Virus record (IMG/VR): IMGVR_UViG_3300032224_000857
Span: 1-32,047 of that record
Reading direction: 5' to 3' (one strand)
DNA: 32,047 nt
From: a virus
Shown: positions 1 to 32,047 of the stretch, piece by piece
How positions within the stretch are numbered: position 1 is the stretch's first letter
How the letters are laid out: the number at the start of each line of letters is the position of its first letter
Program-made: the position numbers and the translations under genes
The notes under the pieces: generated by a model
The model's input: only the letters and a program-made list of their open reading frames with translations
Database searches by the model: none
Told to the model about the DNA's origin: nothing

Positions 1-16
1 TGTGCTCTTCCGATCT
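1..16 (+). other. Illumina adapter remnant
   Basis: The first 16 bases match exactly the 3' end of the standard Illumina read-2 adapter (ending GCTCTTCCGATCT). This is library sequence that was not trimmed before assembly, not phage DNA. Phage sequence starts at the G run at 17. Confidence 0.95.
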
Positions 17-49
17 GGGGGCAGTTTGAGGTTGGACGAGGCCGTGTAG
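17..49 (+). CDS. int: 3' end of the integrase gene, across the contig junction
   Basis: If the right end of the window is joined to position 17 with the five Gs seen here, the integrase frame continues from its Gln297 codon as GGSLRLDEAV and stops at TAG 47-49. The minus-strand gene that follows stops at 55, so the two genes would converge tail to tail with five bases between them, in keeping with the packing elsewhere. The joined protein would be 307 aa. The joining itself is inference; the shared end sequence is described under the findings. Confidence 0.7.
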   Translation, partial: GGSLRLDEAV

Positions 50-54
50 CGTGA

Positions 55-408
55 TCAGCATCTCCGAGCCTCTCGCATCTTGAGCAGGCAGATCAGCGCC
101 CAGTTGGCGGCATCCATCGCCGCGTTCTCAATGTCGACCGGCTGGCCGCTGGCGTAACGCTGGAGCCTGACCACGCAGTCAGACAGATCGCACAACGCCC
201 GACGCCAAGGCTCCACGCCGCATTTCGCGGATGCGGAGACGTTGGCAAACGGGTCGGCCTCGTCGCCGTACTGGGCGGTCTTCTCCAGGTGGAGCTGACG
301 CAGCTCCTCGATGAGCTCGAGGAACGGCAGCGAGCCCGGCCGCTCTGGTGCGCCCGGCTCCATGGCGTACGTGTCGCTACACATCGCTGGTCTCTCCGGG
401 TTGGTCAT
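55..408 (-). CDS. MazG-like phage protein
   Basis: This 117-aa soluble protein is the last gene of the leftward late block. Residues about 30-110 carry a pattern seen in small phage MazG-like/DUF1599-type proteins: a helix with LHLEKTAQYG, then DPFANV, then a W and a long helix with DCVVRLQRYASG, ending in a helix rich in A, L and W. MazG-like proteins hydrolyse or bind non-canonical nucleotides, but I cannot confirm catalytic residues here. The ATG at 408 is chosen over an upstream extension that has no phage character; the start overlaps the end of the phosphoesterase gene by 32 bases and no strong Shine-Dalgarno is visible, so starts a little downstream are possible. Confidence 0.65.
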   Translation of the reverse strand: MTNPERPAMCSDTYAMEPGAPERPGSLPFLELIEELRQLHLEKTAQYGDEADPFANVSASAKCGVEPWRRALCDLSDCVVRLQRYASGQPVDIENAAMDAANWALICLLKMREARRC

Positions 409-1276
409 GGAACGACGCCACCAGTTGGGTCTTGTCGCTGTTCCACCGCAGCAGCATCCACCAGCCGCCGAGCGGTCGTGCAGACATGCCCTTCTCAACG
501 GCCCACCCATCAGTAAGGCATTCCTGTTTGTATGTCGAGCTGCGAACCAAGTGGATTGGCGAGATCCGCGGAATCCCAGATGGCGAGAGCCGCTGACGCG
601 TGGCCTCGATCAGCGTCCGCTGGTGGATGTGGCCGGCGTGGACGCAGTCGGCGTCGGTGTCCACAAGATAGCGCGAGAAGTCGATCACGCCGCGTGTCAC
701 AGGCCCACCGCCGCCGTAGCCGTGGTGATACCAGAGCCGGTACAGGGCCGTCGTCCGCTCGCCGAAGATTCCCCGGAACAGCACCCAGCCCGCGTAGCCG
801 CCCTGGCGGACGCGTCCTCCGTTCATCCGCAGCCGCTCCACCAGCCGGGTCGTTAGGCATGTCTCCATGCGCTTGCGTACTGCCGTCTCATGATTGCCTG
901 GAGTGATCAGGGCCATCTGGTCCCGGTACGGCTCCAGCCACTCGGCGCACTGCGTAACGATGTCGTCGAAATAGTTGCCACGCTGGAACTCCGGTCGGAT
1001 GTCGTTCTTGCCGTTTGACCGTGGATCCCACTTGCCTCCCATAACGTCGAAGTGATCGCCAATCGACAGGACTGCGGCATTCACTCGCTTGGCCTGCTCG
1101 AGGTCGGCCGCCAGCTTGTCGCGGTCACACTTCACCGAGTCCCAGTGCCAGTCGCTTGTGAGCAGCACCCACAGTCTGGCCTTGAACGTCAGCCTATTTA
1201 CGCCGCCGTCGAGCGTCTCGATCGTCCACGGGTCGCTGGCGTTTCGCCGGCGTGTCGGCGTTGCAAGTCTTGCCAT
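377..1276 (-). CDS. calcineurin-like metallophosphoesterase
   Basis: This 299-aa protein has the full metallophosphoesterase motif series: SDWH at 41-44, GDHFD at 73-77, GNHE at 127-130, a His pair in YHHG at 183-186, and GHIH at 215-218. Together these residues bind the two metal ions of the family, so it is probably active as a phosphodiesterase or phosphatase on nucleic acid or nucleotide. The substrate cannot be read from sequence. Phages often carry such enzymes near recombination or tail genes. The ATG at 1276 is preceded by AAGGAGG at good spacing, which fixes the start although it lies 83 bases inside the preceding small gene. Confidence 0.9.
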   Translation of the reverse strand: MARLATPTRRRNASDPWTIETLDGGVNRLTFKARLWVLLTSDWHWDSVKCDRDKLAADLEQAKRVNAAVLSIGDHFDVMGGKWDPRSNGKNDIRPEFQRGNYFDDIVTQCAEWLEPYRDQMALITPGNHETAVRKRMETCLTTRLVERLRMNGGRVRQGGYAGWVLFRGIFGERTTALYRLWYHHGYGGGGPVTRGVIDFSRYLVDTDADCVHAGHIHQRTLIEATRQRLSPSGIPRISPIHLVRSSTYKQECLTDGWAVEKGMSARPLGGWWMLLRWNSDKTQLVASFHDQPGETSDV

Positions 1277-6775: not shown

Positions 6776-7168
6776 TCAGGCCTCGCTGCCGGCAGTGGCT
6801 TTCCTGGCGTTGCTGATCGCCCGCCGCACCAGCATCCTGCCCGCCACGTCGAGGAACGGCAGGCCGCGCGCGGCGGCTTCCTCCCGCATGACCTTGACCA
6901 CCTCGTCAATTCGCTCTGGCTTGCTGCACTCGTCTGGCCCCCATGCGTCCATCTGTGCTGCCTTGGCGCGGCACTGGCACGTTGGCGTCGGCTCGATGCC
7001 GAGTCGTTTCAAGAGGCGGGATAGCTCGGTGCCGGGGCCGTTGGTTGGTGGGGGTGGCGGCTGGACGTCAGGCCGCCACGTCCCGCAAAGTTGGCGGGCG
7101 TTGAATCGCGGCGCGCCACACTCAATGCACCGCAGGCCAGCATCAAACTCACACAAGAGCATGATCAC
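6776..7168 (-). CDS. zinc-ribbon-like phage tail-region protein
   Basis: This 130-aa protein starts with a possible zinc-binding cluster (C6, C14xxC17, C28, then CQC near 64-66 and C80). Its C-terminal two-thirds has a pattern I have seen in phage proteins of this type: GTELSRLLKRLGI, a CQC with a following MDAWG, then helices EEAAARGLPF and LVRRAI. The function is unknown; its position between tail-tip genes suggests a structural or assembly role. The start is a GTG overlapping the previous stop (GTGA); the ATG at 7162 is an alternative. Neither has a strong ribosome site. Confidence 0.6.
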   Translation of the reverse strand: MIMLLCEFDAGLRCIECGAPRFNARQLCGTWRPDVQPPPPPTNGPGTELSRLLKRLGIEPTPTCQCRAKAAQMDAWGPDECSKPERIDEVVKVMREEAAARGLPFLDVAGRMLVRRAISNARKATAGSEA

Positions 7169-8175
7169 GAAAGCCTAATTGTCGGCGATATCGTGCAAGT
7201 TTCATATCCATACTGAAAGACCTTTCCTCCAGTGGTGGTGTATGTAACAGCAGGCTCGCGCAGGGTTTTCGCCGTCTCAATTCTTCCGGAATATGCCAGA
7301 TTTCGGAATACAGATATGCCGGTAGGTGGGTCAACAAATTCAGGGCGAGATATGTAAGGAGACTCCTGCGGCATCACGGCCACCAACTCGGACGGCGACA
7401 TAGAAACGCTTTGCGCGTTGATACCAAATCCGGCTTGGTAGTTGTATTTGCGTTGATAGCCGTCTCCGTTTCCGTAAACGACCTCAAACCCGACCTGGCT
7501 CGTATTCTTGGTATTGAAAAAATCACCTTCCCAAGCTCCCGAGAAACCAATCACCCGCTTGTTTTCTGTGTCCGACCACCATCCATTCGTTGCGGTCTGA
7601 TATGCGTACTGCGGCGTGAGAGATGCAATCTCGTACGTTTCGTATGGAATTTGAGTTGATATTGACGAGTCAGTCACTGTGTTTGATGTCACCACAGATT
7701 GCACGCTTTCGCTAGGCACCCAGTACAGCTTCCGCCTTAGTGACATCGCAAACCCAACGCCGATATAGCACTTTGAATTTGGTATCGTGTGGGCTCCGAA
7801 CCCAGTGTTTGGGGAGGCTGTCATTACTACCTGCGCTGACATCTCAAGCTCACCTCCGTCGCTGACGTAAGTGAAAAACAAGTTTTGGCCTCGCGTTGAC
7901 CTGGACACGTCAAGCGCCAGCGAGTGCTCGCCTGACGGGCTTACAGGTTGCTGCCAATAGCGGCAAGCAAAACTGGTTGGGATAACCTGCATGGAATTTG
8001 GCTGCACATATGTTTTATATGCAAGTGCGGTCTGAGCCGTTGTGGCCTCAACTCCAACAGGAAAAGTGTCTGGCAGGCTTACCGTGCACGAACGCGACAC
8101 AAGAGCGTCCCACGTAGAAATCAAGAACTCGGAGGTGCAGTTTTCGCAGCAAGGACTACAGCTTCCGCCAAGCAT
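7165..8175 (-). CDS. distal tail protein of unknown function (336 aa)
   Basis: I do not recognise a named family. The protein opens with a cysteine-rich head (MLGGSCSPCCENC), then is beta-rich throughout, with many aromatic residues and a long C-terminal part (PEFVDPPTGISVFRNLAY). By position, downstream of the tape measure, it should be part of the distal tail or baseplate. The ATG at 8175 overlaps the preceding stop (TAATG), which is preferred to a longer frame. Base composition looks clearly less GC-rich than the neighbouring genes, which hints at a separate origin. Confidence 0.6.
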   Translation of the reverse strand: MLGGSCSPCCENCTSEFLISTWDALVSRSCTVSLPDTFPVGVEATTAQTALAYKTYVQPNSMQVIPTSFACRYWQQPVSPSGEHSLALDVSRSTRGQNLFFTYVSDGGELEMSAQVVMTASPNTGFGAHTIPNSKCYIGVGFAMSLRRKLYWVPSESVQSVVTSNTVTDSSISTQIPYETYEIASLTPQYAYQTATNGWWSDTENKRVIGFSGAWEGDFFNTKNTSQVGFEVVYGNGDGYQRKYNYQAGFGINAQSVSMSPSELVAVMPQESPYISRPEFVDPPTGISVFRNLAYSGRIETAKTLREPAVTYTTTGGKVFQYGYETCTISPTIRLS

Positions 8176-8513
8176 TAGCCACACTCCGCAGCGATGAGAA
8201 TCCATTCGCCGGCCACGTAGGCAATCGCGCACTTTTTGCTGCCGGTGCCAGTGATGCTGGCAAAGTAGTTTTTTACGCCGGCGTACGTCACGCTCGACAA
8301 CGTGGCGTCGGTGACGGTCTTCGTGCTGCCTTTGTCCCAGGGCGCCGAGAACGTCCCGCGGACCAGGGCGTCATCGCCGGCGGCCGACTGTCGGCCTGGT
8401 GCACCGATCGACCGGTCGCCCTTCTCGACGGCCACGACGGCGCGAGCGATCCGCTGGGCGGCCTCCGGCGTGAAGGTCACTTTCCGCCCTGATTGTCGCG
8501 GAGGCTTGGCCAT
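8175..8513 (-). CDS. small tail-region protein (112 aa), unknown
   Basis: The N-terminal half is helical and basic (EAAQRIARAVVAVEKGDR); the C-terminal half is beta-rich and ends AYVAGEWILIAAECG. The pattern of an N-terminal helix joined to a small C-terminal beta domain fits a tail-tip connector, but no family is recognised. Stop and start codons overlap with both neighbours (TAATG), so it is translated together with the 291-aa protein before it. Confidence 0.55.
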   Translation of the reverse strand: MAKPPRQSGRKVTFTPEAAQRIARAVVAVEKGDRSIGAPGRQSAAGDDALVRGTFSAPWDKGSTKTVTDATLSSVTYAGVKNYFASITGTGSKKCAIAYVAGEWILIAAECG

Positions 8514-9388
8514 TAGCCTGGCGTCCCAAATACGGTGAAGCTGGTCTCTTTGTAGAGCTTGAACGTGAGCGCGTCGGGAGCCGAGCCAGCCGCCTTTGCC
8601 ACGCCGCTCGAGAGGGCCACGGGGTTCTTTACGGGCTTCTTGTCAGCACCAAGCACGGCGGCCCGCTGCGAGCCACCAGCCGTCGGCGTCCCAGACGAGT
8701 CGACGAGCTGATTGAATCCCACGTCCCACGGTTTGAAATCCCACGTCTCCGCCCGATAGCAGAACTCCCAGGTGGTCTCCCAGTAGGGCTTGGTCGTATC
8801 GTCCGAGCTCGAGGTGGCCTCCTTCTTGGAGGCACTCTTGAACGCCACCTTCCACGTCCTGGCCGGCGAGCTGTTCCACGTGGAGCTGTTCACCGTGTTT
8901 GACTGCGAACTGGCAATCGACGACCAGGCTAGATCCGTGTAGCACTTTGTTAGGTGGAGCGTGAACTCGCTCGACTCTCGCTCAGCCCCCTCCAACGGAT
9001 CTTTTGCGGAGTTGACAATCTTGTTGCCATCCTTGTCTTCAAACACGGGGATGGTAACCGTCGAACCGCTGCCAGACCAACTATCCACGGGAAGGCCTGT
9101 GGACGGGCTCGGCGTGTTCTCGACCGGCGGGATGTAATACCGCACCGTGATCGACCACATCATCCCGTCGCCGCTCTCCTCGGTGCAGTCAAACTCCATT
9201 GCTTTGTGACTGGCAAAGTCTGGATGCCCGGCGCCGAACACGATGCCGGGGGCGCGAGAGATCAGCGTCCGCGGCGTGAACGGTGAATCCACACGCACAA
9301 TCCACTTGCGGGTGAACGTGAACGACTCGCCGAACTTGCCGCTCACGCCAGTGCCGCGCGCGGTTTCGAGACATGCCACAACTGCCAT
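8513..9388 (-). CDS. distal tail protein (291 aa), unknown
   Basis: This is the first gene after the tape measure in transcription order, the usual place of the distal tail (Dit-like) protein. It is beta-rich with several W-rich strands (TFTRKWIVRVDSPF, WSITVRYYIPP, WKVAFKSASKK, WETTWEFCYRAETW) and a proline-rich loop near residue 90. No family is recognised with certainty, so the Dit-like role is inferred from position. GGGAG precedes the ATG; the stop overlaps the start of the next gene. Confidence 0.6.
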   Translation of the reverse strand: MAVVACLETARGTGVSGKFGESFTFTRKWIVRVDSPFTPRTLISRAPGIVFGAGHPDFASHKAMEFDCTEESGDGMMWSITVRYYIPPVENTPSPSTGLPVDSWSGSGSTVTIPVFEDKDGNKIVNSAKDPLEGAERESSEFTLHLTKCYTDLAWSSIASSQSNTVNSSTWNSSPARTWKVAFKSASKKEATSSSDDTTKPYWETTWEFCYRAETWDFKPWDVGFNQLVDSSGTPTAGGSQRAAVLGADKKPVKNPVALSSGVAKAAGSAPDALTFKLYKETSFTVFGTPG

Positions 9389-9391
9389 GCG

Positions 9392-11551
9392 TTACGCTCC
9401 CAGAATGCCGAAGGCTTCCATGTCGTCGCCCTCGGAGACGGCATCGCGGATCTGCTCGAGCACGCCGAGCTGCTGCTCCTGAACGTCTTCGCCGTTGCTT
9501 CGCATGAGGCGAAACATCTCGGCCATGCCCTCCTTAGAGCGACTGTCGGTGGCCTTTAGCGCTTCGTTCGACGCCCCAGTGAACGCCTGCTCCGCCGGAG
9601 GCTTGACCGGCACCTTAGCCGCCTCGGCCACGCTCTGGGCTTTCGCGTCTGCCTGTGCCTTTGCCAGGCCTTCCGCCAAGATCGTCGACAGAGGCCCGGC
9701 CCCCTGGAACTGGCCGACGCCTCCTGTCCCGCCCGTCAGCACGTTTCCGGCTGCCGTCACGGCCTTGCCGGCCGCGGCATCGGCCTCGGTCGACAGTTTG
9801 TTTGCAGAGTCTTCCATCGACTTGCCAAACTCGGCCCAGCCCGTGCCAGCCACAGAATCGGGAAGGGCGTTCATAATCGCGGCGCCGTTTGCGATCACGC
9901 GAGAGATCAGGGCGGCCACGCCCTTGAACACACTCTCGCCCACAAACCAGATTGCCTGCAGCCCAGACACGACCCGATTAAACACGTCGATCACCGTGCC
10001 GGCGTATTCAAACGCTGAGCCGATGCCGCTGATCATCCAGTCGGCGATGCCGGCAAGGAACTGGGCGCCCTTTATGATCCCCTCGCCAATGAACTGGCCA
10101 ATGTTTGCGCCGCCGATCCCTCCGATGAGATTCAAGAACGTGTCTGTGACGCCCTGGATGGCGGGAGCGAGATAGGCAACGACCTGGCCGACAATGCCCT
10201 GAACGGCCATCTGAGCCTTCGTGAACGCGCTGCTCATGGAGTTGACGCTTGCGGCCTGGTCGTTGGTAAGTGCCAGTCCGAACTTCGCCGCCTCATCTGT
10301 GGCAGATGCAATCGCACCGGCGCCGCGCTCAAACATGGGCAGCAACTCGGCACCGGCCTTGCCAAAGATCTGGAGCGCGGCCCGCGACCGCTCGGCAGCA
10401 GTCGGCAACGCAGAGATGCCGTCGGCAATCGCCCGGAACCGCTCGGCAGGCGACAGGCCGTTAAGCTGCTCCACGGACAGGCCGATGCCGGAGAAGGCTG
10501 CCTGTGCAAGTTTGGAGCCCTGAGCAGCGCTGACGAAAGCCACGTCCGCCTTTGTGGCAGCGGATGCAATTTGGTCCATTGACACGCCAGCCTGAGCACC
10601 AGCAAGACCAATTCCCGAGAGCTCGCCGTAAGTCATGCCGAGACGCTTGGCCAGGTCGCTCTGGCCGCTGATGACTTCAGCCTGGGCTGCGCCCATGCCA
10701 GCAAACGAGCGGACGGTATTGCCGACGGCCATTGAGATCTGGCCGAAGAGCTGGGCGGCGTTGATGGCAATCAGTGCGTTGAGCTTGCCGCCGAGCTTCT
10801 CGACGCCGGAGCTCGCCGCAGATGTGGCGGCAGCCAGCCCACGCGTGCCGCCGGTGGCCTGCCGCAGCTCGTCGTCGGCCCGATCAACGGCCCGCGAGTA
10901 TGTCTCCTGTGAAATCGCACCGGCAGCCAGCAGGCCGCGGAGCCGCTGCACCTCGTCGCCGTGCCGCTCCTCAGCCGTTCGCACTGATTGCGTTACCGCG
11001 GCCCCCTCGTTGAAGGTCTTCGCCATCATCTCCATCGCACGGCCGGCGTTCTCCATCTCCTGCCGTTCTCGCGCCGTGGCGCCAGTCAGGTCAGCCATTG
11101 CCCTGGCGTGGGTCTCTTGTGAGATCACGCCTTGCTCAAGGAGCGAGTTGGCCTCGGCAATCGACCGCGAAGCAGTTTCCTCGGCCGTCGTGTATTTCGC
11201 CGTCATTGCCGCACCGGCAGCGACGGCCGCACCTGTCGACTCTGCGGCAGCGCCAATCAATTCCATCTTGGTGGCAAACTCTTGGGCCGTGATCCGCCCG
11301 GACGCCAGGGCCTGCTGGGCAAGAAGCGCGAGACGCTGGAACTGGCCGAGCTTGGTGGCGGCCACCTCCGCCGCCGGCCCGACGGCACCGACGCCCTTGG
11401 CGGCAACGCTCTGCATTCCCTCGAAAAGACCCTTGAGCGTGCCGGCCTCGCCGCCGAGCTGGCGGAACGAGCGAATGGCATCCGACACGCCGGCCCGCAG
11501 GCCAGACGTGCTGGCCGAAAAGACGGCGGATACTTTGCCGATCGTTGCCAC
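9392..11551 (-). CDS. tail tape measure protein
   Basis: This 719-aa protein is the longest in the window. It has long Ala- and Gly-rich helices with repeated motifs (ITAQEFATKMELIGAAA, ISQETHARAMADL, ISQETYSRAVDRA), typical of tape measure proteins, and a more hydrophobic stretch around 450-570 (VAYLAPAIQGV, FIGEGIIKGAQFLAGIADW) that may interact with membrane at DNA entry. From the usual ruler relation (about 0.15 nm per residue) the tail would be roughly 100 nm. It directly follows the chaperone pair, starting at GTG three bases after their stop, with AAGGG upstream. Confidence 0.9.
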   Translation of the reverse strand: MATIGKVSAVFSASTSGLRAGVSDAIRSFRQLGGEAGTLKGLFEGMQSVAAKGVGAVGPAAEVAATKLGQFQRLALLAQQALASGRITAQEFATKMELIGAAAESTGAAVAAGAAMTAKYTTAEETASRSIAEANSLLEQGVISQETHARAMADLTGATARERQEMENAGRAMEMMAKTFNEGAAVTQSVRTAEERHGDEVQRLRGLLAAGAISQETYSRAVDRADDELRQATGGTRGLAAATSAASSGVEKLGGKLNALIAINAAQLFGQISMAVGNTVRSFAGMGAAQAEVISGQSDLAKRLGMTYGELSGIGLAGAQAGVSMDQIASAATKADVAFVSAAQGSKLAQAAFSGIGLSVEQLNGLSPAERFRAIADGISALPTAAERSRAALQIFGKAGAELLPMFERGAGAIASATDEAAKFGLALTNDQAASVNSMSSAFTKAQMAVQGIVGQVVAYLAPAIQGVTDTFLNLIGGIGGANIGQFIGEGIIKGAQFLAGIADWMISGIGSAFEYAGTVIDVFNRVVSGLQAIWFVGESVFKGVAALISRVIANGAAIMNALPDSVAGTGWAEFGKSMEDSANKLSTEADAAAGKAVTAAGNVLTGGTGGVGQFQGAGPLSTILAEGLAKAQADAKAQSVAEAAKVPVKPPAEQAFTGASNEALKATDSRSKEGMAEMFRLMRSNGEDVQEQQLGVLEQIRDAVSEGDDMEAFGILGA

Positions 11552-21720: not shown

Positions 21721-23312
21721 GAGTCCGCGCTCGCCTCCGGCTCCGCCGTCATCGAGACCGCCAGACCGCAGACGGCCGCGACGATCCCGTCTGTTTTCTC
21801 TTGGCTCCGGCCCTTGTCCGGTTTCATGTTGCCCTGGTGATCCACGTACAGGCAGACGTTCGACGCCATCCACTGCATGACCGGAGACGGGCACCTAAAC
21901 TTCTTCTCGTGGATCATCACCTCGAGCAGTTTGCTAGGCGCCGTCATGCGGCCAACCGACTGCCCGATAGCGTGCACTTCAAGCCCTGATCGTTGAAGTT
22001 GCGTGGCAACGCTGCCCAGGTTCCACGGGTCGGCGCCAACGCCTCGGCATGGATGCTTCTGAGAGTACGCGATGAGATCGGCAGCGACCTGGTCGTGATC
22101 GAGACGCACGCCCGGCGTCGTCCTGATCCAGCCTTCTGCGATCCATTGACGCAGCGGAACTCGCGCCTCCTTCTCACGGTCGGCAACGTTCTCCTCCGGC
22201 ATCCAGAACATGGCCTCGGCGTCGTAGCCGCCCTGGCCGTCGGGGAAGAGCGCCACGGCTGCGGTCAGGTCGAGGTGATCGGCCAGGTCAAGGCCGATGA
22301 AACACGACCGGCCCTCGAGCGGCTGCGGTGGCGGCACGACGCACGGTGCGTAAGCCTCTGGCGTGAACCAACGGTTATCAGGAGTGGTCCAAACATTCAG
22401 GCTGTATCTCAACCAGCGCGATCTCTTGACAGGGTTGGTCAGTGAGTCCTGCCAGTCGGCGCGGAACTCCTCCTCTGGGAAAGTAATGCCCATCGACGGG
22501 TTTGCACGGCGCCAAACTTCTGGATCGTCGAAGTTGTCGGTCGGCTTTGCCGCATAGATCAGGCCGAAGAATGTCGGGTTGGCGGCCGGGTTCTTCATGA
22601 CGAGTTCGGCATCTTGCCACCACTGGTAGCCTGGGCCTTTGCGGTCATCGCCGGCCGTGCTGATCGCTAGGACCAGGCCGTTTGGCGTGGCGCGCGTGGC
22701 GTAGGTCAATGCGCTGACGAGCTCGTCGGTACGGTGGGCGTGGATCTCGTCAATGATCACGCTGCCGTTCAATCCTTCGTTCCGCCACGAGTCGGCCGAC
22801 AGGCAACGGAGAATGTTGCCGTGCTTTCGGTTCCTGATGATCGACTTGGAGTCGACTACCTCGAGCACCTTGGAGAGCGGTGACGACTCGACCGATCGTT
22901 TCAGCATTCGGTAGAGAATCCTGGCCTGTTCACGGTCGACGGCTGCCGGGTAAACGTCGGCGTGTGGCATGTGCGACGTCAGCAGGTATTGGGCGAGCTG
23001 GCTCATCAGGAACGTTTTCGCGTTCTTCTTTGGGACAAACACGGCGCCGCGTCGGTAGCGGAGCCGGCCGTCGGGCCGCTTCCACCCGAACAGCGGCGCG
23101 ATCACGCGGTCGCGGTGCCACGGGATGATGGTGACCGGCTGCGGATCGCCACCGTCCTGGCTGGGAATGCGGCACAGGCTTTCAATGAACTCCGCTGGCT
23201 TGGCCGCAGCCCCGGCGTCCCACGTGTAGCCGGGCACGTACTCTGGCCGATCGGAGCCTGGCTCAACCGCAGAAGGCTTTGAGGGCTGCCTCTTCGGCGT
23301 CTTCTTCGCCAT
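21699..23312 (-). CDS. terL: terminase large subunit
   Basis: This 537-aa protein shows the HK97-like (Terminase_1) layout. The ATPase has a P-loop variant VPKKNAKT at 93-100, Walker B VIIDEIHAH near 185-193, and a coupling motif ISTAGDD. The nuclease half has acidic residues in GLDLADHLDLTAAV, GADPWN and a final DGIVAAVCG. It pumps DNA into the prohead and cuts it. The gene overlaps the small subunit by 50 bases; GGAGG lies before the ATG. Confidence 0.93.
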   Translation of the reverse strand: MAKKTPKRQPSKPSAVEPGSDRPEYVPGYTWDAGAAAKPAEFIESLCRIPSQDGGDPQPVTIIPWHRDRVIAPLFGWKRPDGRLRYRRGAVFVPKKNAKTFLMSQLAQYLLTSHMPHADVYPAAVDREQARILYRMLKRSVESSPLSKVLEVVDSKSIIRNRKHGNILRCLSADSWRNEGLNGSVIIDEIHAHRTDELVSALTYATRATPNGLVLAISTAGDDRKGPGYQWWQDAELVMKNPAANPTFFGLIYAAKPTDNFDDPEVWRRANPSMGITFPEEEFRADWQDSLTNPVKRSRWLRYSLNVWTTPDNRWFTPEAYAPCVVPPPQPLEGRSCFIGLDLADHLDLTAAVALFPDGQGGYDAEAMFWMPEENVADREKEARVPLRQWIAEGWIRTTPGVRLDHDQVAADLIAYSQKHPCRGVGADPWNLGSVATQLQRSGLEVHAIGQSVGRMTAPSKLLEVMIHEKKFRCPSPVMQWMASNVCLYVDHQGNMKPDKGRSQEKTDGIVAAVCGLAVSMTAEPEASADSWQIIEL

Positions 23313-23754
23313 GCTCTGTCGCCTCCGGCGGGAATCGGGTCTCGGCCGCCGGCGTCAGGCCGTACTCGCGCGCCAGGCTGACGAAGTCGCGGCGAGCGTC
23401 TCGCAGCAGCCTCGCCACTGGGTTGGCCTGCTGGCCTTTGTCCGTGCTTGTCATCCAGCCCTCGGCGGCGAGCTGCTCGGCGAGCTCGCGGCAGTCTGCG
23501 TAGATGTGAGAGAGCAGGGCGAGGCCCTCGACGTTGTCGGATCGCAGCCTGCCAGCGCCAGCCAGGCTGTCGGCGTGGGCCTTCCAGTAGGCGGCAGCCA
23601 CAGGGCGGGCCGCGACGTCCTTGGGGGCCTTTGGAGTGCTGCCGGGCTTGCCCTCGGGCGACACGGAAAGAGACTTGCCGATAGCCGCAACGCGGGCCAC
23701 AGCGGCCTGCGATCGCTTGCTGTTGGGGTCAGGATGTCGGCCTCTGCGGCCCAT
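23263..23754 (-). CDS. terS: terminase small subunit, P27 type
   Basis: This 163-aa protein has the outline of P27-family small terminases: a basic N-terminus (MGRRGRHPDPNSKR), APKDVAARPVAAAYWKAHAD, a helix LALLSHIYADCRELAEQL, and the DNA-binding-like NPVARLLRDARRDFVSLAREYGLTP near 108-132. It selects the packaging site and recruits the large subunit. GAGGTAAGT is just before the ATG. It is preceded by an HNH nuclease gene, a common pair in cos-type phages. Confidence 0.88.
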   Translation of the reverse strand: MGRRGRHPDPNSKRSQAAVARVAAIGKSLSVSPEGKPGSTPKAPKDVAARPVAAAYWKAHADSLAGAGRLRSDNVEGLALLSHIYADCRELAEQLAAEGWMTSTDKGQQANPVARLLRDARRDFVSLAREYGLTPAAETRFPPEATEHGEEDAEEAALKAFCG

Positions 23755-23862
23755 ACTTACCTCTGGTTTTGGCTTAGTTGGTCGGAAATTCGTGCGAAGG
23801 CAGCATGGGGCTTAAGTCGATCGTCGTTTTGCCAAACCGACCCACCCCCCCCCTCGGGCGCC
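23755..23862. other. intergenic gap, candidate cos region
   Basis: This 108-bp gap lies between the HNH gene and terS, the place where many HNH/P27-terminase phages carry the packaging cut site. It holds a run of ten Cs (23845-23854) next to ACCGACCCA. No coding frame stands out. The cos role is inferred from gene order only. Confidence 0.35.
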
Positions 23863-25458: not shown

Positions 25459-26310
25459 TCAGCTCGCTTTGAGCTGCTCGATCATCTTCCGCCTGGTGGC
25501 CTCGAACCTCGCGGCCTCCTCGCCCGTGAACCCTTGGGCCGGTGGTTTGTCATCCGGGCCTCGATAGCCGCCTGCCGGTCGCTGTTCCCGTGGGTTGTCA
25601 AACTGCCCACCTAGAACCTTGTCGACGAAGCCGGCGGCCACGAGCTGCGGCAGCGTCACTGGGTCGCGGAAGTATTTGCACCGTGGCAGGGCCTCGATGG
25701 CCGCCAGGGCCTTCTCGAACCAGCCCTCCTCGGCCAGGCGGTCTCCGACCTTGTCCGGGGCCGTGGGAAGCTTCCAAGGCCGTCCTGTGCCTGCGGCCCA
25801 CGCCTTCCGTAGCGTGTCCCAGCCTGCCGGCTGCTCCGGTCCTTGCGCAGCACTTCCTGGGGAAGAAGAAGAATTTCTATCTCCTCTATCTCTTCTCTCT
25901 AGGGCGCGCGGCGCCACAGCCGGGGGCGCTACGCGCCCCGCACGGGGGCGCTGGGCGCCCCCGGCCTTGTCCACCTGGTGCCGGACGTTGGCAAGAGCCC
26001 GTGATTTAGCGGCCTGCGAGAACCGACGCTCCCATCCGGGGATCGCCACAGTTCCGTTCTCCGCGTCAATCACAAGCCAGCCCACCGACTCGACCTCCCG
26101 CCAGAACTCGTCGTCACCGCCGCACAGCTTCGCCAGCAGCCGGACTGACATCCGGGCCGTGCCGTCGGAGCTGTTGAGCGCCGCCCAGCCCCACAGCATC
26201 AGGAGCCGCCCGACGACCTGGTCCGGCTGCAGGCCGGTACGGTCGACGAGCTCGAGCACCTCGGGCTTGTGGGGCAGGCAGACGTCGTAGGGAATCCATT
26301 CACCGGCCAT
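25459..26310 (-). CDS. replication initiator-like protein with HTH domain
   Basis: This 283-aa protein has an N-terminal domain (about 1-105) with EWIPYDVCLPHKPEVLELV, DQVVGRLLMLWGWAAL, and a winged-helix part WREVESVGWLVI, as in phage replication organisers; a Ser/Arg-rich linker (about 115-160); and a C-terminal helical domain from about 165. The linker DNA carries three palindromic iterons and an A/T-rich purine tract, as lambda O does with its origin. It likely binds the origin and loads the host helicase, since no helicase gene is present. AAGGAGG precedes the ATG. Confidence 0.7.
   Translation of the reverse strand: MAGEWIPYDVCLPHKPEVLELVDRTGLQPDQVVGRLLMLWGWAALNSSDGTARMSVRLLAKLCGGDDEFWREVESVGWLVIDAENGTVAIPGWERRFSQAAKSRALANVRHQVDKAGGAQRPRAGRVAPPAVAPRALERRDRGDRNSSSSPGSAAQGPEQPAGWDTLRKAWAAGTGRPWKLPTAPDKVGDRLAEEGWFEKALAAIEALPRCKYFRDPVTLPQLVAAGFVDKVLGGQFDNPREQRPAGGYRGPDDKPPAQGFTGEEAARFEATRRKMIEQLKAS
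25862..25962. repeat. candidate replication origin: three palindromic iterons and an AT-rich tract
   Basis: Three copies of GGCGC-NNN-GCGCC start at 25903, 25925 and 25947, exactly 22 bp apart. The second and third extend to 7- and 8-bp arms (25923-25939 and 25944-25962). Just to the left, 25862-25902 is a strand-asymmetric A/T-rich stretch (pure purine-rich on the minus strand). Iterons at helical spacing plus an unwinding element inside an initiator gene form the lambda-type origin design. Confidence 0.7.
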
Positions 26311-26322
26311 CCGTGGCCTCCT

Positions 26323-27138
26323 TCAAAACTTTGAGAATTGCTCAAACTCGTCAAACGCTTCAGCTTTCTTACAACGAAGGCCCTTGCTGTAAATCAGAGC
26401 GATTGCGTCGTATGTCGCCAGCGCTCGCCCGTACTGCGAAGAGTCCCTGTCCTTGCCAAGTTTGTGGTTCGCATCGGCAGCCCTGACTACACCGTTGATC
26501 GACTTTTTCGAGAGCTTCTCGACAAGCCTGCTCATGTCGAAGTCAGGGTGTTTCTTTATGAACCAGCACATGCCCTCGATCATGTCGCCCTGCAATGCTC
26601 CATCCTCTCCAGGCCACGACCTGTCGAGTATGTGCAGTGCTGTGCGAAGACCGGTCGCACTGACCCTGACGAATGACCTCTCAAGCGCCTTGACGGCGCG
26701 GATGCAGGGCCACGAGGTGCTGTGATTGTCTAGTCCGAGCTTGAACCCCGCAGACTTGACGCAGTCTGCGATTGCAAGCGTCTGCTCGTCTCCTTCTGTG
26801 AGCTGAGCGCGAAACAACACAACCGCAGAAACGTTAGTCCGTTCTCTGTTTTTGAGCCGAAACACTCGTGCTTCGTGCTCTTGGCCATCGGACTGAAACA
26901 CATCGCAAGGGACCATCCCAATCCCAAGTTTTCGAGCGGCAGTAAGTCGTTGCATGCCATCAACCACCCAGTAAGAGCCGTCCTTCCGCTGCCCAACAGT
27001 AAGAGAGCCAAACGCATCTTGGTCCAAGTTCTTCGCAATTCTGCTGACACGATTTGGCACAATAGTCCGCTGATACGAGTCGGAGATGTTCAACTCGTCG
27101 ACTCCGATCTTCTTGTTTTCTGTCTTCAGTAGCCGCAT
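26323..27138 (-). CDS. ParB-like N-domain protein
   Basis: This 271-aa protein has a ParB/sulfiredoxin-like domain in its first half: DSYQRTIVPNRVSRIAKNL, SLTVGQRKDGSYWVVDGMQRLTAARKLG (the DGMQR box takes the place of ParB DGHHR) and KNRERTNVSA. The second half is helical, with a conserved look but no known domain. Such orphan phage proteins act as DNA-binding regulators or as NTP-dependent nucleases. Base composition seems less GC-rich than neighbours, which points to recent gain. AAAGGAGG precedes the ATG. Confidence 0.75.
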   Translation of the reverse strand: MRLLKTENKKIGVDELNISDSYQRTIVPNRVSRIAKNLDQDAFGSLTVGQRKDGSYWVVDGMQRLTAARKLGIGMVPCDVFQSDGQEHEARVFRLKNRERTNVSAVVLFRAQLTEGDEQTLAIADCVKSAGFKLGLDNHSTSWPCIRAVKALERSFVRVSATGLRTALHILDRSWPGEDGALQGDMIEGMCWFIKKHPDFDMSRLVEKLSKKSINGVVRAADANHKLGKDRDSSQYGRALATYDAIALIYSKGLRCKKAEAFDEFEQFSKF

Positions 27139-28970: not shown

Positions 28971-29930
28971 TCATGCCACGGCATTGACGGCCACCTCCGG
29001 CTCAATCTGCTGGTGGCGGATGCTGATCTGCTTGTCGAGTCGCGCCCTCTGTGTCGGGCTCAGGTCGCCCGTGGAGACAGCCTGGTCGGCCTCGTCGCCG
29101 ATGGTGCCGAGCTCCTCGACGGTGGCGGCGTTGTTCACACGCTCCAGCCAGCCGATCCGATGCTCAGTCGTGGAAGGCACCGCGGCAGGTCCGTGAACCG
29201 CCGCGGTGCTTGTCCCACCCGCCGGCAACGCTGCCGTCGGTTCTGTGTTCCCTGCTGCCAGCCACGCGGCGAGCTGCTTGCCAAGCTCTTCGCCGGCCTC
29301 GCGGATGATCTGGTCCTTGAGCCATGCGGCCCTGGTCTTCGTGATGATCAGCTCGTGGTCCTGCGTCACGTCGCCGACCACGGTGAACTCGTACTCCAGG
29401 CCGTCACGCTGGACCGGCTGCAGCCCGACCTTGCGGACCTGAGTCCGGCCGTTGACCTGTTCGATAACGTGCTCGACCTTGCTGCGGAGCGTGCAGATGA
29501 TGTGCAGCTTCGCGCCAAGGATCGCGTCGACCAACTGGTTGTGGAGCGGCGTGGCGTCACGCCAGCCTGAGAAGCTGCCCCCACCTGATCGCTTCGCGGC
29601 CTTGTCGACAAACTCAAGGATGCCGCCCTTGCCAGCCCATGCGTGGCTCAGGCTGTCGATGATCAGCACGTCGTAGCCGGCGGTCTCGGCCTGGGCGATC
29701 GCCTGGATGAACTTCTCGGCCTCGTAGCTGTCGAGCTCGTCGACGTCGAAGTCGAGGCCACGCTCGCCGCTGTAGAGGCTGGCCGAGCCGCGCTCTGTGT
29801 CGATCACCGCCACGCGGCCGCCGAGCCCGTAGGCGACCCGCAGGGCCGTCATCGTCTTGCCGCTGCCCGCCGGGCCGATGAGTCCAAGCCGAAGTTTTGC
29901 TGCCGCCTTTGTTGCCTTCTTGAAACCCAT
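28971..29930 (-). CDS. RecA-like ATPase, Sak4-type recombinase
   Basis: This 319-aa protein begins with an intact P-loop, GPAGSGKT (19-26), then a VIDTERGSASLY segment and Walker B VLIIDSLSH (88-96), followed by the Sak4/AAA_24 outline GGILEFVDKAAKRSG, HNQLVDAILGAKLHIICTLRSK and VGLQPVQRDGLEYEFTVV. Sak4 proteins are single-strand annealing or strand-exchange recombinases that work with SSB. The C-terminal 70 residues are a linker and helical tail. The start has AAAGGA upstream. Confidence 0.85.
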   Translation of the reverse strand: MGFKKATKAAAKLRLGLIGPAGSGKTMTALRVAYGLGGRVAVIDTERGSASLYSGERGLDFDVDELDSYEAEKFIQAIAQAETAGYDVLIIDSLSHAWAGKGGILEFVDKAAKRSGGGSFSGWRDATPLHNQLVDAILGAKLHIICTLRSKVEHVIEQVNGRTQVRKVGLQPVQRDGLEYEFTVVGDVTQDHELIITKTRAAWLKDQIIREAGEELGKQLAAWLAAGNTEPTAALPAGGTSTAAVHGPAAVPSTTEHRIGWLERVNNAATVEELGTIGDEADQAVSTGDLSPTQRARLDKQISIRHQQIEPEVAVNAVA

Positions 29931-30065
29931 GTCTGCGTCCTTTGCTACTGGTGAGAAAAGCCCGTTTCGCGTCGTGCTGGCGGGCTGGCGAATTGCGTCC
30001 CTGCTATGCCGGCTCCGCCGGCCATCCTTTCGACCGTGGCGTCCTGCCGCAGCCGGTCCTGTGAT

Positions 30066-30323
30066 CTAGAAGGGCAGCACGTTGCCAAGTGGCCACGGCC
30101 GCGGGTCGACCTCGACGATGTCCTCGACGGTCTCGACAAACAGACGGTTCCGCTGCTCGCAGACGTCCACAATCCGGCCGTCGTCAGACGATGCAGGCGA
30201 CCAGCCAGTGAGGCGGAATGAGATGTGGTCGCCGATGGCGTGGCAGTCGAGGGCTCGACGAGTGGGAGTCTGCTCGTGTAGCCCGCAGGCGGCGGCCAGG
30301 TATTCGTTGTGGTGAGCGTCCAT
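30066..30323 (-). CDS. small hypothetical early protein (85 aa)
   Basis: The protein reads as a mix of short helices and strands (HNEYLAAACGLHEQTPTRRALDCH, then a strand-rich half ending RPWPLGNVLPF). No family is recognised. A copy of the 20-bp repeat lies immediately before its AAGGAG ribosome site, so it may be controlled by the same factor as the promoter upstream. It is followed by a 135-bp gap with no convincing gene. Confidence 0.6.
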   Translation of the reverse strand: MDAHHNEYLAAACGLHEQTPTRRALDCHAIGDHISFRLTGWSPASSDDGRIVDVCEQRNRLFVETVEDIVEVDPRPWPLGNVLPF

Positions 30324-30335
30324 GCCTGTCTCCTT

Positions 30336-30355
30336 GTTGTCCTATCTCAAATTTG
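30336..30355. repeat. 20-bp operator-like repeat, copy 2
   Basis: The same 20-base sequence as at 30507-30526 with one mismatch; it includes the palindrome CAAATTTG. This copy overlaps the end of the 44-aa gene and the ribosome site region of the 85-aa gene, and lacks the promoter boxes of copy 1. Confidence 0.7.
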
Positions 30356-30476
30356 CCAGCAGCAGATTGAGTAGATGGTGAATCGTGCGTGCCAGCTCGG
30401 AATCCGTTCCAAGCTGCTGGCCGATGCTGATGAGCGTTAGTGCTCTGATCAGGCCATCAGTGTTTCCGTATCTCAC
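30342..30476 (-). CDS. 44-aa early protein
   Basis: A GTG start at 30476 with GGAGG six bases upstream lies about 20 bases after the predicted transcription start of the strong promoter. The product (VRYGNTDGLIRALTLISIG, then a helix HHLLNLLLANLR) is amphipathic and helical. A longer frame up to 30533 would start inside the promoter and is rejected. As the first gene of the leftward transcript it could be a small regulator, but no family is known. Confidence 0.6.
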   Translation of the reverse strand: MRYGNTDGLIRALTLISIGQQLGTDSELARTIHHLLNLLLANLR

Positions 30477-30500
30477 AGGCGTCCTCCTGACGCGGCGGGG

Positions 30501-30530
30501 ATGATAGTTGTCCGATCTCAAATTTGTCAA
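30501..30530 (-). promoter_or_regulatory. strong leftward sigma70-type promoter
   Basis: TTGACA (30530-30525), an 18-base spacer, then TATCAT (30506-30501). The spacer is copy 1 of the 20-bp repeat, so a bound protein would block it. This is the best promoter-like sequence that I see in the window and would start the leftward early transcript near 30494. Confidence 0.75.
30507..30526. repeat. 20-bp operator-like repeat, copy 1
   Basis: It lies between the -35 and -10 boxes of the leftward promoter and includes CAAATTTG, an 8-bp palindrome. The second copy is at 30336-30355, 171 bp away in the same orientation. The position fits an operator; the protein that binds is not known. Confidence 0.65.
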
Positions 30531-30564
30531 CACGCGAAAGGATCGGATTTTTCGCCCGTAAAAA

Positions 30565-30813
30565 TTAGGCCGATTGCCGATGGCCGGGGCGTCGCCCGCA
30601 CAGCTTACCGGCCGCCCTCAGCTTCTCGCGTTCTTTCGCAAGTTGCTGGATCTCGTCAGCGTCGTAGAGCCAGGCCCGCTTGGTGATCTGCTGGGACCAG
30701 ATCTCGCCGCGAACGGCCATGCCTCGGATGTGCGTTCCAGAGCATCCGTAGAGGTCTGCAGCCTCGGTAGTCGAACAAAGCTTTTTGGCAGGCAGTCTTA
30801 CGGGCATCTTCAT
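30565..30813 (-). CDS. excisionase-like MerR-type HTH protein
   Basis: This 82-aa protein has a MerR/excisionase-type DNA-binding outline: LCSTTEAADLYGCSGTHIRGMAVRGEIWSQQ, then AWLYDADEIQQLAKEREKL, typical of helix-turn-helix proteins of the excisionase type. It lies just left of the attachment site and divergent from the integrase, the common position of xis. The start is the ATG at 30813; the ATG at 30807 is possible. It may also regulate its own promoter. Confidence 0.75.
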   Translation of the reverse strand: MKMPVRLPAKKLCSTTEAADLYGCSGTHIRGMAVRGEIWSQQITKRAWLYDADEIQQLAKEREKLRAAGKLCGRRPGHRQSA

Positions 30814-30821
30814 GGCCCCAG

Positions 30822-30849
30822 AGTGTAGGGATGCTACTTTGCTGATCAA
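30822..30849 (-). promoter_or_regulatory. likely promoter of the excisionase-like gene
   Basis: TTGATC (30849-30844), a 16-base spacer and TACACT (30827-30822) resemble a sigma70 promoter with two mismatches in each box. Transcription would begin close to the start codon, so the mRNA would be leaderless or nearly so. Confidence 0.4.
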
Positions 30850-30879
30850 CACAATTTGCCTTTGCCTCCCAGACCGGCG

Positions 30880-30893
30880 TACGGTTCCAGTAG
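30880..30893 (-). repeat. integrase arm-type site, left copy (inverted)
   Basis: The 14-base sequence is the exact reverse complement of CTACTGGAACCGTA, found twice to the right of the tRNA remnant. Repeats in opposite orientation flanking a core fit integrase arm sites. Confidence 0.65.
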
Positions 30894-30898
30894 GCGAC

Positions 30899-30950
30899 TA
30901 CACCCCGCTGGGCTCGAACCAGCAACCTTCGGTTCCGTAGACCGATGCGC
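30899..30950 (-). other. attP: attP core: 3' part of a tRNA-Arg(ACG) gene
   Basis: Read leftward, the sequence forms the 3' part of a tRNA: an anticodon stem TCGGT/ACCGA (30945-30941 and 30933-30929) around CTACGGA, with anticodon ACG; a variable loop AGGTT; a T-arm GCTGG/CCAGC around TTCGAGC (30923-30907); and GGGGTGT (30906-30900) as the 3' acceptor strand. No 5' acceptor strand or complete D-arm is present. Phages that integrate at a tRNA carry such a fragment so that the host gene is restored after insertion. Confidence 0.85.
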
Positions 30951-30963
30951 TACTGGAACCGTA
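30950..30963 (+). repeat. integrase arm-type site, first right copy
   Basis: CTACTGGAACCGTA, directly beside the tRNA fragment; it repeats 22 bp to the right and, inverted, at 30880-30893. Confidence 0.65.
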
Positions 30964-30971
30964 GAAACCAC

Positions 30972-30985
30972 CTACTGGAACCGTA
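30972..30985 (+). repeat. integrase arm-type site, second right copy
   Basis: Second direct copy of CTACTGGAACCGTA, 22 bp (two helical turns) from the first, so proteins bound to both would face the same side of the DNA. Confidence 0.65.
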
Positions 30986-31100
30986 GATCCGGTTTTGCGG
31001 GGTGTTTGACAGTCCGCCCGTCATCCGGAGGATGGCACCACCTTTCCGCCCCATGAGGGGGCGTGGCGGGCGTCAGAGGGGCTGCAGGCGGCGGTCCCTC

Positions 31101-31121
31101 TGGCACACCAACGATGTGCCA
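31101..31121 (+). promoter_or_regulatory. inverted repeat before the integrase start
   Basis: TGGCACA, seven bases, TGTGCCA form a perfect 7-bp inverted repeat which ends two bases before the ATG. It could be an operator or an mRNA hairpin that hides the start of int; no ribosome site is visible upstream. Confidence 0.5.
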
Positions 31122-31123
31122 AG

Positions 31124-32044
31124 ATGTATTGCAACGCAGGGCCGGCAACGCTGTCAGCGTATGCCGCCAACTACAATCTCCTCCGCGATGTGCGGCCGGA
31201 GACCGTCCGCCAGTACCAGATCACCGCTCGCCTTTTCGAGCAATGGGCCGGGCACCCCGTGCAGCTCGTCAATCTCGACGAGGCCAGCGTCTCCGCCTGG
31301 CTGCGGGACTACGCCGCCTCTGGTGTCGTGCCGGAGACCGTCCGGTCGAAGAAGGTAGGCCTGTTGGCCTTGTGGCGGGCCGCAGCCGACGAGGGCCTGT
31401 GCGAGCCGCCCACACGCCGCATAAGGTCCGTAAAGGTACCGTACAAGGCACCCACGTGCTGGACATGGGAGGAGGTGTCCGCCCTCCTGACGGCCTGCCA
31501 GGGCCTCCAGCGATGGCATAAGACCGGGCTCCGCCGGTCGGCGTGGTTCGACCTAGCCATCCGCATGGCATGGGACACTGGGCTCCGCCAAGGCGATCAG
31601 TGGCGGCTGCCTGTCGCCGACATCCGGCCCGACGGGGCCGTCGGCCTGGTGCAGTCCAAGACGGGCAGGCCTGTTCTGTGCCAACTGTCGCCCTCGACCG
31701 TCGAGGCTCTGCGGGTCTCGCTCGAGGTGGCCCCGCGGCAGCTCGTTACGCCCTGGCTGTCATCGCACGAGACCTTCGACGACCAGTTCAAAAGATTGGT
31801 GACTCGGGCAGGCATCCGGCCGGGTACCTGGAAGTGGCTCAGGCGGGCCTCGGCCACCGATGTGGAGATCCAGAGACCGGGATCAGCAACGGCCCACCTC
31901 GGGCACGTTCCAGGTTCCAGAATCGCAGAGCGTAGCTACATCGACCCGGCCCAATTCTCACGCACCGCCATTACGCCACGCGAGCTCGTCGTCGCAGCGT
32001 TTGAAGCTAGGCAAGGGGGGGGGGGGGGGCCGTTTGTGGTTTGA
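31124..32044 (+). CDS. int: tyrosine integrase (C-terminus altered by a G-run artefact)
   Basis: This tyrosine recombinase has an N-terminal SAM-like binding domain (about 5-95; SAYAANYNLLRDVRPETVRQ), then the catalytic domain: Arg155 in TGLRQGDQ, Lys179 in SKTGRP, an HxxR-type box that reads KWLR (K237, R240), His261 in HLGH, and the nucleophile Tyr272 in SYIDP. Lys in place of the box His is unusual for textbook integrases, though I recall it in planctomycete-type enzymes. The last nine residues after Gln297 come from the G run and its degraded tail and are not real; the true end is probably at 17-49 of the window. Confidence 0.85.
   Translation: MYCNAGPATLSAYAANYNLLRDVRPETVRQYQITARLFEQWAGHPVQLVNLDEASVSAWLRDYAASGVVPETVRSKKVGLLALWRAAADEGLCEPPTRRIRSVKVPYKAPTCWTWEEVSALLTACQGLQRWHKTGLRRSAWFDLAIRMAWDTGLRQGDQWRLPVADIRPDGAVGLVQSKTGRPVLCQLSPSTVEALRVSLEVAPRQLVTPWLSSHETFDDQFKRLVTRAGIRPGTWKWLRRASATDVEIQRPGSATAHLGHVPGSRIAERSYIDPAQFSRTAITPRELVVAAFEARQGGGGGPFVV
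32015..32029 (+). other. 15-G homopolymer artefact
   Basis: A run of 15 Gs replaces the five Gs seen at 17-21. Long G runs near read ends are typical of two-colour Illumina chemistry, where no signal is called as G. Confidence 0.8.
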
Positions 32045-32047
32045 CAA
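32030..32047 (+). other. degraded copy of the window's left end
   Basis: The 18 bases after the G run match positions 22-39 at 14 of 18 places by hand alignment. They look like a low-quality read of the same sequence, which means the contig ends overlap. Confidence 0.7.

Follow-up and report, generated by a model that had tools for sequence, protein, structure and literature searches.

A length-variable poly-G tract at the integrase gene end of a temperate phage: a possible contingency locus

The integrase gene and the ends of the window

We studied a stretch of viral DNA of 32,047 nucleotides (nt; IMG/VR virus record IMGVR_UViG_3300032224_000857, the whole stretch being referred to as the window), whose right end holds most of a phage integrase gene (int) and a run of Gs. 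The positions of all features are listed in Table 1. The window starts with the 16 bases TGTGCTCTTCCGATCT, followed by the left G run (17-21; 5 G) and by CAGTTTGAGG. It ends with the right G run (32015-32029; 15 G) and 18 further bases. These are an imperfect copy of the left sequence, with four errors: they are identical at 14 of 18 positions to the 18 bases past the left run, as an earlier note on this DNA had reported. When all positions of the window are considered on both strands, this is the top place; the runners-up are two places with 13/18, and no other reaches 14. Bases 1-16 presumably derive from an Illumina TruSeq read-2 adapter, with the end of which they agree. There is no further TGTGCTCTTCCGATCT in the window, and the last 12 bases of this sequence have no copy on either strand of any of the 234 loci analysed.

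Judged by catalytic-domain homology, fold and conserved Arg/Lys/Arg/His/Tyr residues, the int product is a tyrosine recombinase (phage integrase). Pfam profile PF02899 scores 23.3 bits (cut-off 22.3), and PF00589 remains just below its cut-off (26.9 vs. 27.1 bits). Within the fold comparison, the predicted model matches lambda Int (1z19; Z-score 15.3, 256 residues, root-mean-square deviation 3.8), tied with Tn1549 Int (6en2; Z-score 14.6). R155, K179, R240 and Y272 are invariant across 41 integrase sequences; H261 is nearly invariant across 21, with N instead in some. Their catalytic roles, including that of Y272 as the catalytic tyrosine, are assumed from family knowledge. The tract begins 26 residues past Y272, i.e., after the last predicted helix, and residues 295-310 of the model show a predicted local distance difference test value below 50 and are predicted to be disordered.

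Relatives cross the join

Relatives were collected from IMG/VR, where the integrase query yielded 44 loci and the query with the convergent gene (55-510) yielded 63 loci; one locus set consists of the best 80 of 139. The two window ends belong together. Relative G001 aligns to window positions 29846-32028 and then directly to 17-2640, and G005, given on the other strand, joins 29778-32029 to 17-2640; both alignments are gapless at the G run. They also confirm that the join splits the integrase gene, such that the 306-residue integrase ending is false, i.e., an artefact of the error-laden contig end, as the earlier note had claimed. In the contigs of L005/L053, L011/L051 and L027/L054, int and the tract are immediately followed by a homologue of gene 55-510; the last of these contigs shows int, a tract of 31 Gs and the homologue in succession. 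Among eight contigs compared, two match the window on both sides of the tract and one (G004) ends at the tract like the window. The remaining five show, after int, a stretch of at least 1.3 kb without match to the window.

Relatives cross the join and are opened elsewhere on the same order, which makes the map a circular or circularly permuted one: G003 and G005 start near window positions 7000-11500 with unchanged circular gene order. The proposal of a complete circular genome thus stands for the map (G001, G003, G005) but not for the exact size of 31,998 bp, and IMG/VR classifies the window record as linear without end repeats. Joining the ends at five Gs, on which this size was based, is not supported either, given 15 Gs at the right end and mostly 8-31 at the same place in relatives. 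The five left Gs are only what one adapter-bearing fragment kept. The idea that the genome was opened at a difficult G run is right about the place of the break, but the tract is more than a difficult spot: it is hypervariable.

We find 9 of 87 loci to end at most 60 nt past the int match, which makes this the highest 60-nt bin, far above its neighbours, and five of these nine carry a run of 8-18 at the contig end. The opening point is likely an assembly failure at a real homopolymer, with the tract rather than a physical end as its cause. Because contigs of these phages share this breakpoint, they look linear and carry false integrase endings. Alternatively, the tract could be a natural DNA end, i.e., a packaging terminus. 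This would explain the adapter standing directly against five Gs at the left end of the window, and it agrees with several contigs ending in or just past the tract. However, the assemblies of many relatives run through the tract without interruption, the terminase large subunit gene is about 9 kb distant, and adapter sequence was not found at the other contig ends of the 234 loci, such that we consider a terminus very improbable. We give even less credit to a sequencing artefact, i.e., a G run made by two-colour chemistry or amplification. The error-laden last 18 bases of the window would suit it, but more than 30 loci, from many samples, contain internal G/C runs with conserved unique sequence on either side, and one clade shows C runs on the coding strand.

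Homopolymer tracts at integrase gene ends

In relatives, the functionally equivalent place, directly after the last predicted helix, is occupied by G runs of 6 to 31. The clade with coding-strand C runs shows lengths of 9 to 18 at the int end, and three loci without end tract carry 12-17 Gs between the phage attachment site (attP) and int. We compared the 100-nt int ends of 84 viral loci (near duplicates included, three loci from metagenome-assembled genomes (MAGs) omitted) with the remaining 896,330 bases as background. The int ends contain 36 runs of at least 10 and 31 of at least 11, while the background contains 2 and 0, respectively. The 250 nt upstream of int hold 3 runs of at least 12 in the same 84 loci. 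Runs of at least 10 are absent from 744 other gene ends, as called by a rough codon model that was trained on the window; the same model underlies our C-terminus and convergent-gene counts and leaves about 270 of 810 kb noncoding. Within the three planctomycete MAGs with distant relatives, 5 distinct runs of at least 11 are found in about 12.2 Mb.

Tract length varies between close relatives. L151 and L152 have identical int DNA with G runs of 14 and 11, respectively, and further close pairs have tracts unequal by 1-8, among them L154/L155, L141/L142, L120/L121, L029/L138 and L143/L148 with differences of 3-8 at 93-98% identity. The locus thus shows two traits expected of a contingency locus: a homopolymer far above background whose length differs between near-identical genes.

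To place the tracts on a tree, we dropped incomplete int sequences and then near-identical DNA (at least 98.5%), which reduced 86 rows to 76. Among these 76 integrases, 29 have a G tract at the end, 9 a C tract at the end, 3 an upstream tract, and no tract is present in the remaining 35. At least 11 label changes are required on the tree (7 G-end, 2 C-end, 2 upstream), and G and C tracts fall in separate clades. This suggests that G tracts were gained about four times, C tracts once and upstream tracts twice, with additional losses, i.e., several independent origins.

A neutral microsatellite might also produce such tracts, in which case a disordered tail would tolerate any sequence and G/C runs would arise and drift there without function. 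The predicted disorder of the tail, the interrupted short runs in L126 and L128 and the lack of a clearly preferred frame (see below) are in line with it. On the other hand, neutral drift does not account for the absence of runs of at least 11 in 896 kb elsewhere and of at least 10 at the other gene ends, nor for the repeated origin at the same place together with tracts upstream of the same gene. We therefore regard a purely neutral origin as rather unlikely.

Alternative integrase tails

Each tract length modulo 3 leads into one of three short tails, and the tract switches a C-terminal integrase tail that is predicted to be disordered. For 16 main-clade loci, the three frames are used 5, 8 and 3 times, respectively; all three thus occur within a clade, as they do in other clades. 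Frames were read by hand for unbroken runs of at least 9 with readable downstream sequence, which excludes L126 (broken run) and the loci with 6 Gs; loci with too little downstream sequence were left out of the tail as well as of the convergent-gene and terminator counts. The earlier note had argued for five Gs because they give the natural ending GGSLRLDEAV, whose stop (47-49) lies five bases from the convergent stop (55-57). This ending does exist, but it cannot fix the number at five, because every length modulo 3 stops before or at the convergent gene. With 15 Gs, the ending resembles the ones found in L016 and L123.

We give about an even chance to the following explanation. The window would stem from a planctomycete temperate phage with a circular or circularly permuted map that was opened within its poly-G tract, and this tract would be a simple-sequence contingency locus that varies the integrase tail. 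Slipped-strand replication would change the tract length, and the length modulo 3 would pick one of the three tails that follow the post-helix glycine stretch. The tail is located beyond the catalytic tyrosine, where tyrosine recombinases dock their C-terminus on the neighbouring subunit. Given this position, slippage probably tunes activity, assembly or stability of the integrase rather than acting as an off-switch. By analogy with related recombinases, the tail may thereby influence integration, and the outcome would be a mixed population of phages more and less prone to lysogeny. More tentatively, and with somewhat less than even confidence, Planctomycetota temperate phages could phase-vary their integrase. 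Here, slippage of the conserved, repeatedly evolved poly-G/poly-C tract, or in a few phages of the tract upstream of int, would give a burst with varied tails and varied lysogeny propensity and thus hedge the bet. If so, a conserved contingency tract in the enzyme of lysogeny would constitute a heritable, mutable bet between lysis and lysogeny.

Several observations weigh against a contingency tract. Slippage within one phage population is inferred from assembled contigs, in which tract lengths above about 15 may be inexact. At the extreme gene end, the tract is ill-suited as an on/off switch. None of the frames is clearly favoured (5/8/3 of 16), which neutral drift would also give. Furthermore, the close pairs L012/L134, L152/L154 and L136/L139 have equal tract lengths, and the tract is missing from 35/76 tree rows. 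The ends of the integrase proteins add a point against a version based on proteolysis, as detailed in the following.

C-terminal protein ends

Mycobacteriophage integrases carry a degron (PMC4557955, PMC8092301). A degron switch is attractive for this reason and because integrase proteins here often end with -AG, namely 19 of 65 non-redundant ones vs. 13 of 795 other genes, a comparison of non-independent rows, for which the small Fisher p-value is too optimistic. The Ala-Gly ends use varying codons and stop codons. Planctomycete ssrA tags, in contrast, end with -AA in 28 of 28 cases (28 tags from 30 loci), which argues against the ssrA form of the degron idea. Also the tails encoded by the window end with -AV, -AV or -VA and thus lack the ssrA-like -AA of the BPs type. 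With the family most often ending in -AG and the host tags in -AA, an ssrA-like degron switch is weakened.

The convergent gene junction

The tract might act as a DNA or RNA element rather than via the protein, i.e., a G:C duplex or G-quadruplex at the convergent junction could block colliding transcription. In most G-tract loci, a convergent gene lies no more than about 45 nt from the int stop, and few rows of either class have a hairpin-plus-T terminator on the int strand (3/31 tract rows, 4/34 other rows), as such a roadblock would suggest. However, C-tract loci are without an adjacent convergent gene, the nearest called minus-strand gene being 384-825 nt off, and in some phages the tract is located upstream of int rather than at its end. 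In addition, tract-free convergent int junctions exist, and none of the other convergent junctions carries a tract (0/4, i.e., only four controls). We thus hold a roadblock to be improbable.

Two further roles were rejected. A substitute for a hairpin terminator would require a class difference, which the above terminator counts do not show. The attachment site is not a candidate either, because the family-wide tRNA-Arg-like core is located about 200 nt upstream of int, with the tract 1.1 kb away.

Independent of these considerations, the palindrome TTGACGTATGTCAA (or a close variant) is found just past the int stop in L007, L015, L016, L129, L155 and L167, which may represent an operator.

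Comparison with known systems

Contingency tracts are known from bacterial surface and restriction genes. Among the matches listed for the literature searched, most subscription papers being outside of it, we found no description of such an integrase tract. Contingency loci of Neisseria and Campylobacter likewise show long G/C tracts that vary between close relatives and that occur in coding 3' parts as well as promoter regions (PMC5084427; see also PMC6321876); in Neisseria, repeats near the 3' end of genes are reported to change the C-terminus of a protein that is still functional (PMC5084427). In contrast, the tract reported here is located at the extreme 3' end of the integrase gene of a putative planctomycete temperate phage, and its slippage is presumed.

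Tn1549 Int, XerA and lambda Int share the fold, and C-terminal segments regulate the activity of Tn1549 Int and XerA (PMC5871717, PMC3646895). Tn1549 Int is more active after C-terminal truncation (PMC5871717), and XerA recombination is blocked by deletion of the last helix (PMC3646895). While the C-terminus of Tn1549 Int and XerA is fixed, it is changed here by a mutable tract past the last predicted helix. Compared to the integration-dependent immunity of BPs-type mycobacteriophages, the ends are -AG, -AV, -AL or -RVA instead of -AA, and attP is located upstream of int in tRNA-like sequence. Finally, N4-like Vibrio phages are described to contain homopolymers of up to 12 with a suggested role of slippage (PMC3670811); this is a general count there and not one conserved integrase place.

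Phage genome and additional observations

Table 1. Features at the window ends and around the integrase gene (window coordinates).
Position	Strand	Feature	Basis
1..16	+	sequencing adapter remnant, not phage DNA	TGTGCTCTTCCGATCT; presumed adapter identity; no copy in rest of window or 234 loci
17..21	+	left poly-G remnant, 5 G, truncated by fragment end	relatives have 6-31 G here
22..54	+	putative alternative integrase C-tails by tract length modulo 3	SLRLDEAV (stop 47-49), AV (27-29), QFEVGRGRVA (52-54)
55..510	-	convergent gene, no Pfam match	homologue after int across tract in three relatives
30565..30852	-	small helix-turn-helix protein (HTH_17), excisionase-like by position	21.9 bits, below curated cut-off 27
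30880..30894	+	inverted copy of TACGGTTCCAGTAG flanking attP core	partners 30950-30965, 30972-30987
30907..30952	-	probable attP core, 3' part of tRNA-Arg(ACG)	Rfam tRNA 24.9 bits, below gathering threshold 29
31124..32014	+	tyrosine integrase up to tract, 297 residues; continues through tract into 22-54	profile match, alignment, fold
32015..32029	+	poly-G tract, 15 G as assembled	conserved, length-variable among relatives
32030..32047	+	error-laden copy of 22-39; unreliable contig end creating false 306-residue ending	alignment

The genome is that of a tailed temperate phage with terminase, portal, major head and tape-measure genes. The sequence of the attP core is conserved upstream of int across the whole family, and L137 and L178 carry a complete tRNA-Arg(acg) there. 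The only bacterial matches are three distant loci, all from planctomycete MAGs (0/3 with end tract), which suggests a planctomycete host. Among 50,697 phage records, cultured relatives are represented by one weak partial match (27% identity). A search with two exact patterns flanking the join gave no near-identical phage record, in a collection that may omit the nearest records, and among the matches listed for literature on planctomycete phages and prophages none was on topic.

A ParB-like protein (26326-27138) adjoins a replication initiation protein (25462-26310), i.e., a plasmid-like module within a temperate phage. The window contains a second run, 9 C on the plus strand (23845-23853), in the gap upstream of a gene (23263-23754) located before the terminase large subunit gene.

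Other loci with a homologue of gene 55-510 show a second class of variable tracts, which follow the -12 element of sigma-54-like sites and lie ahead of the expected transcription start. Using [TC]GGCA[CT]-N5-TTGC, which we take to be the sigma-54 consensus, 8 of 54 distinct matches run directly into C runs of 9-22 (L063:8416, L068:8753, L073:8694, L077:8639, L078:3842, L085:8965, L094:8289 and L097:8845), and the other 46 are followed by at most 4 C.
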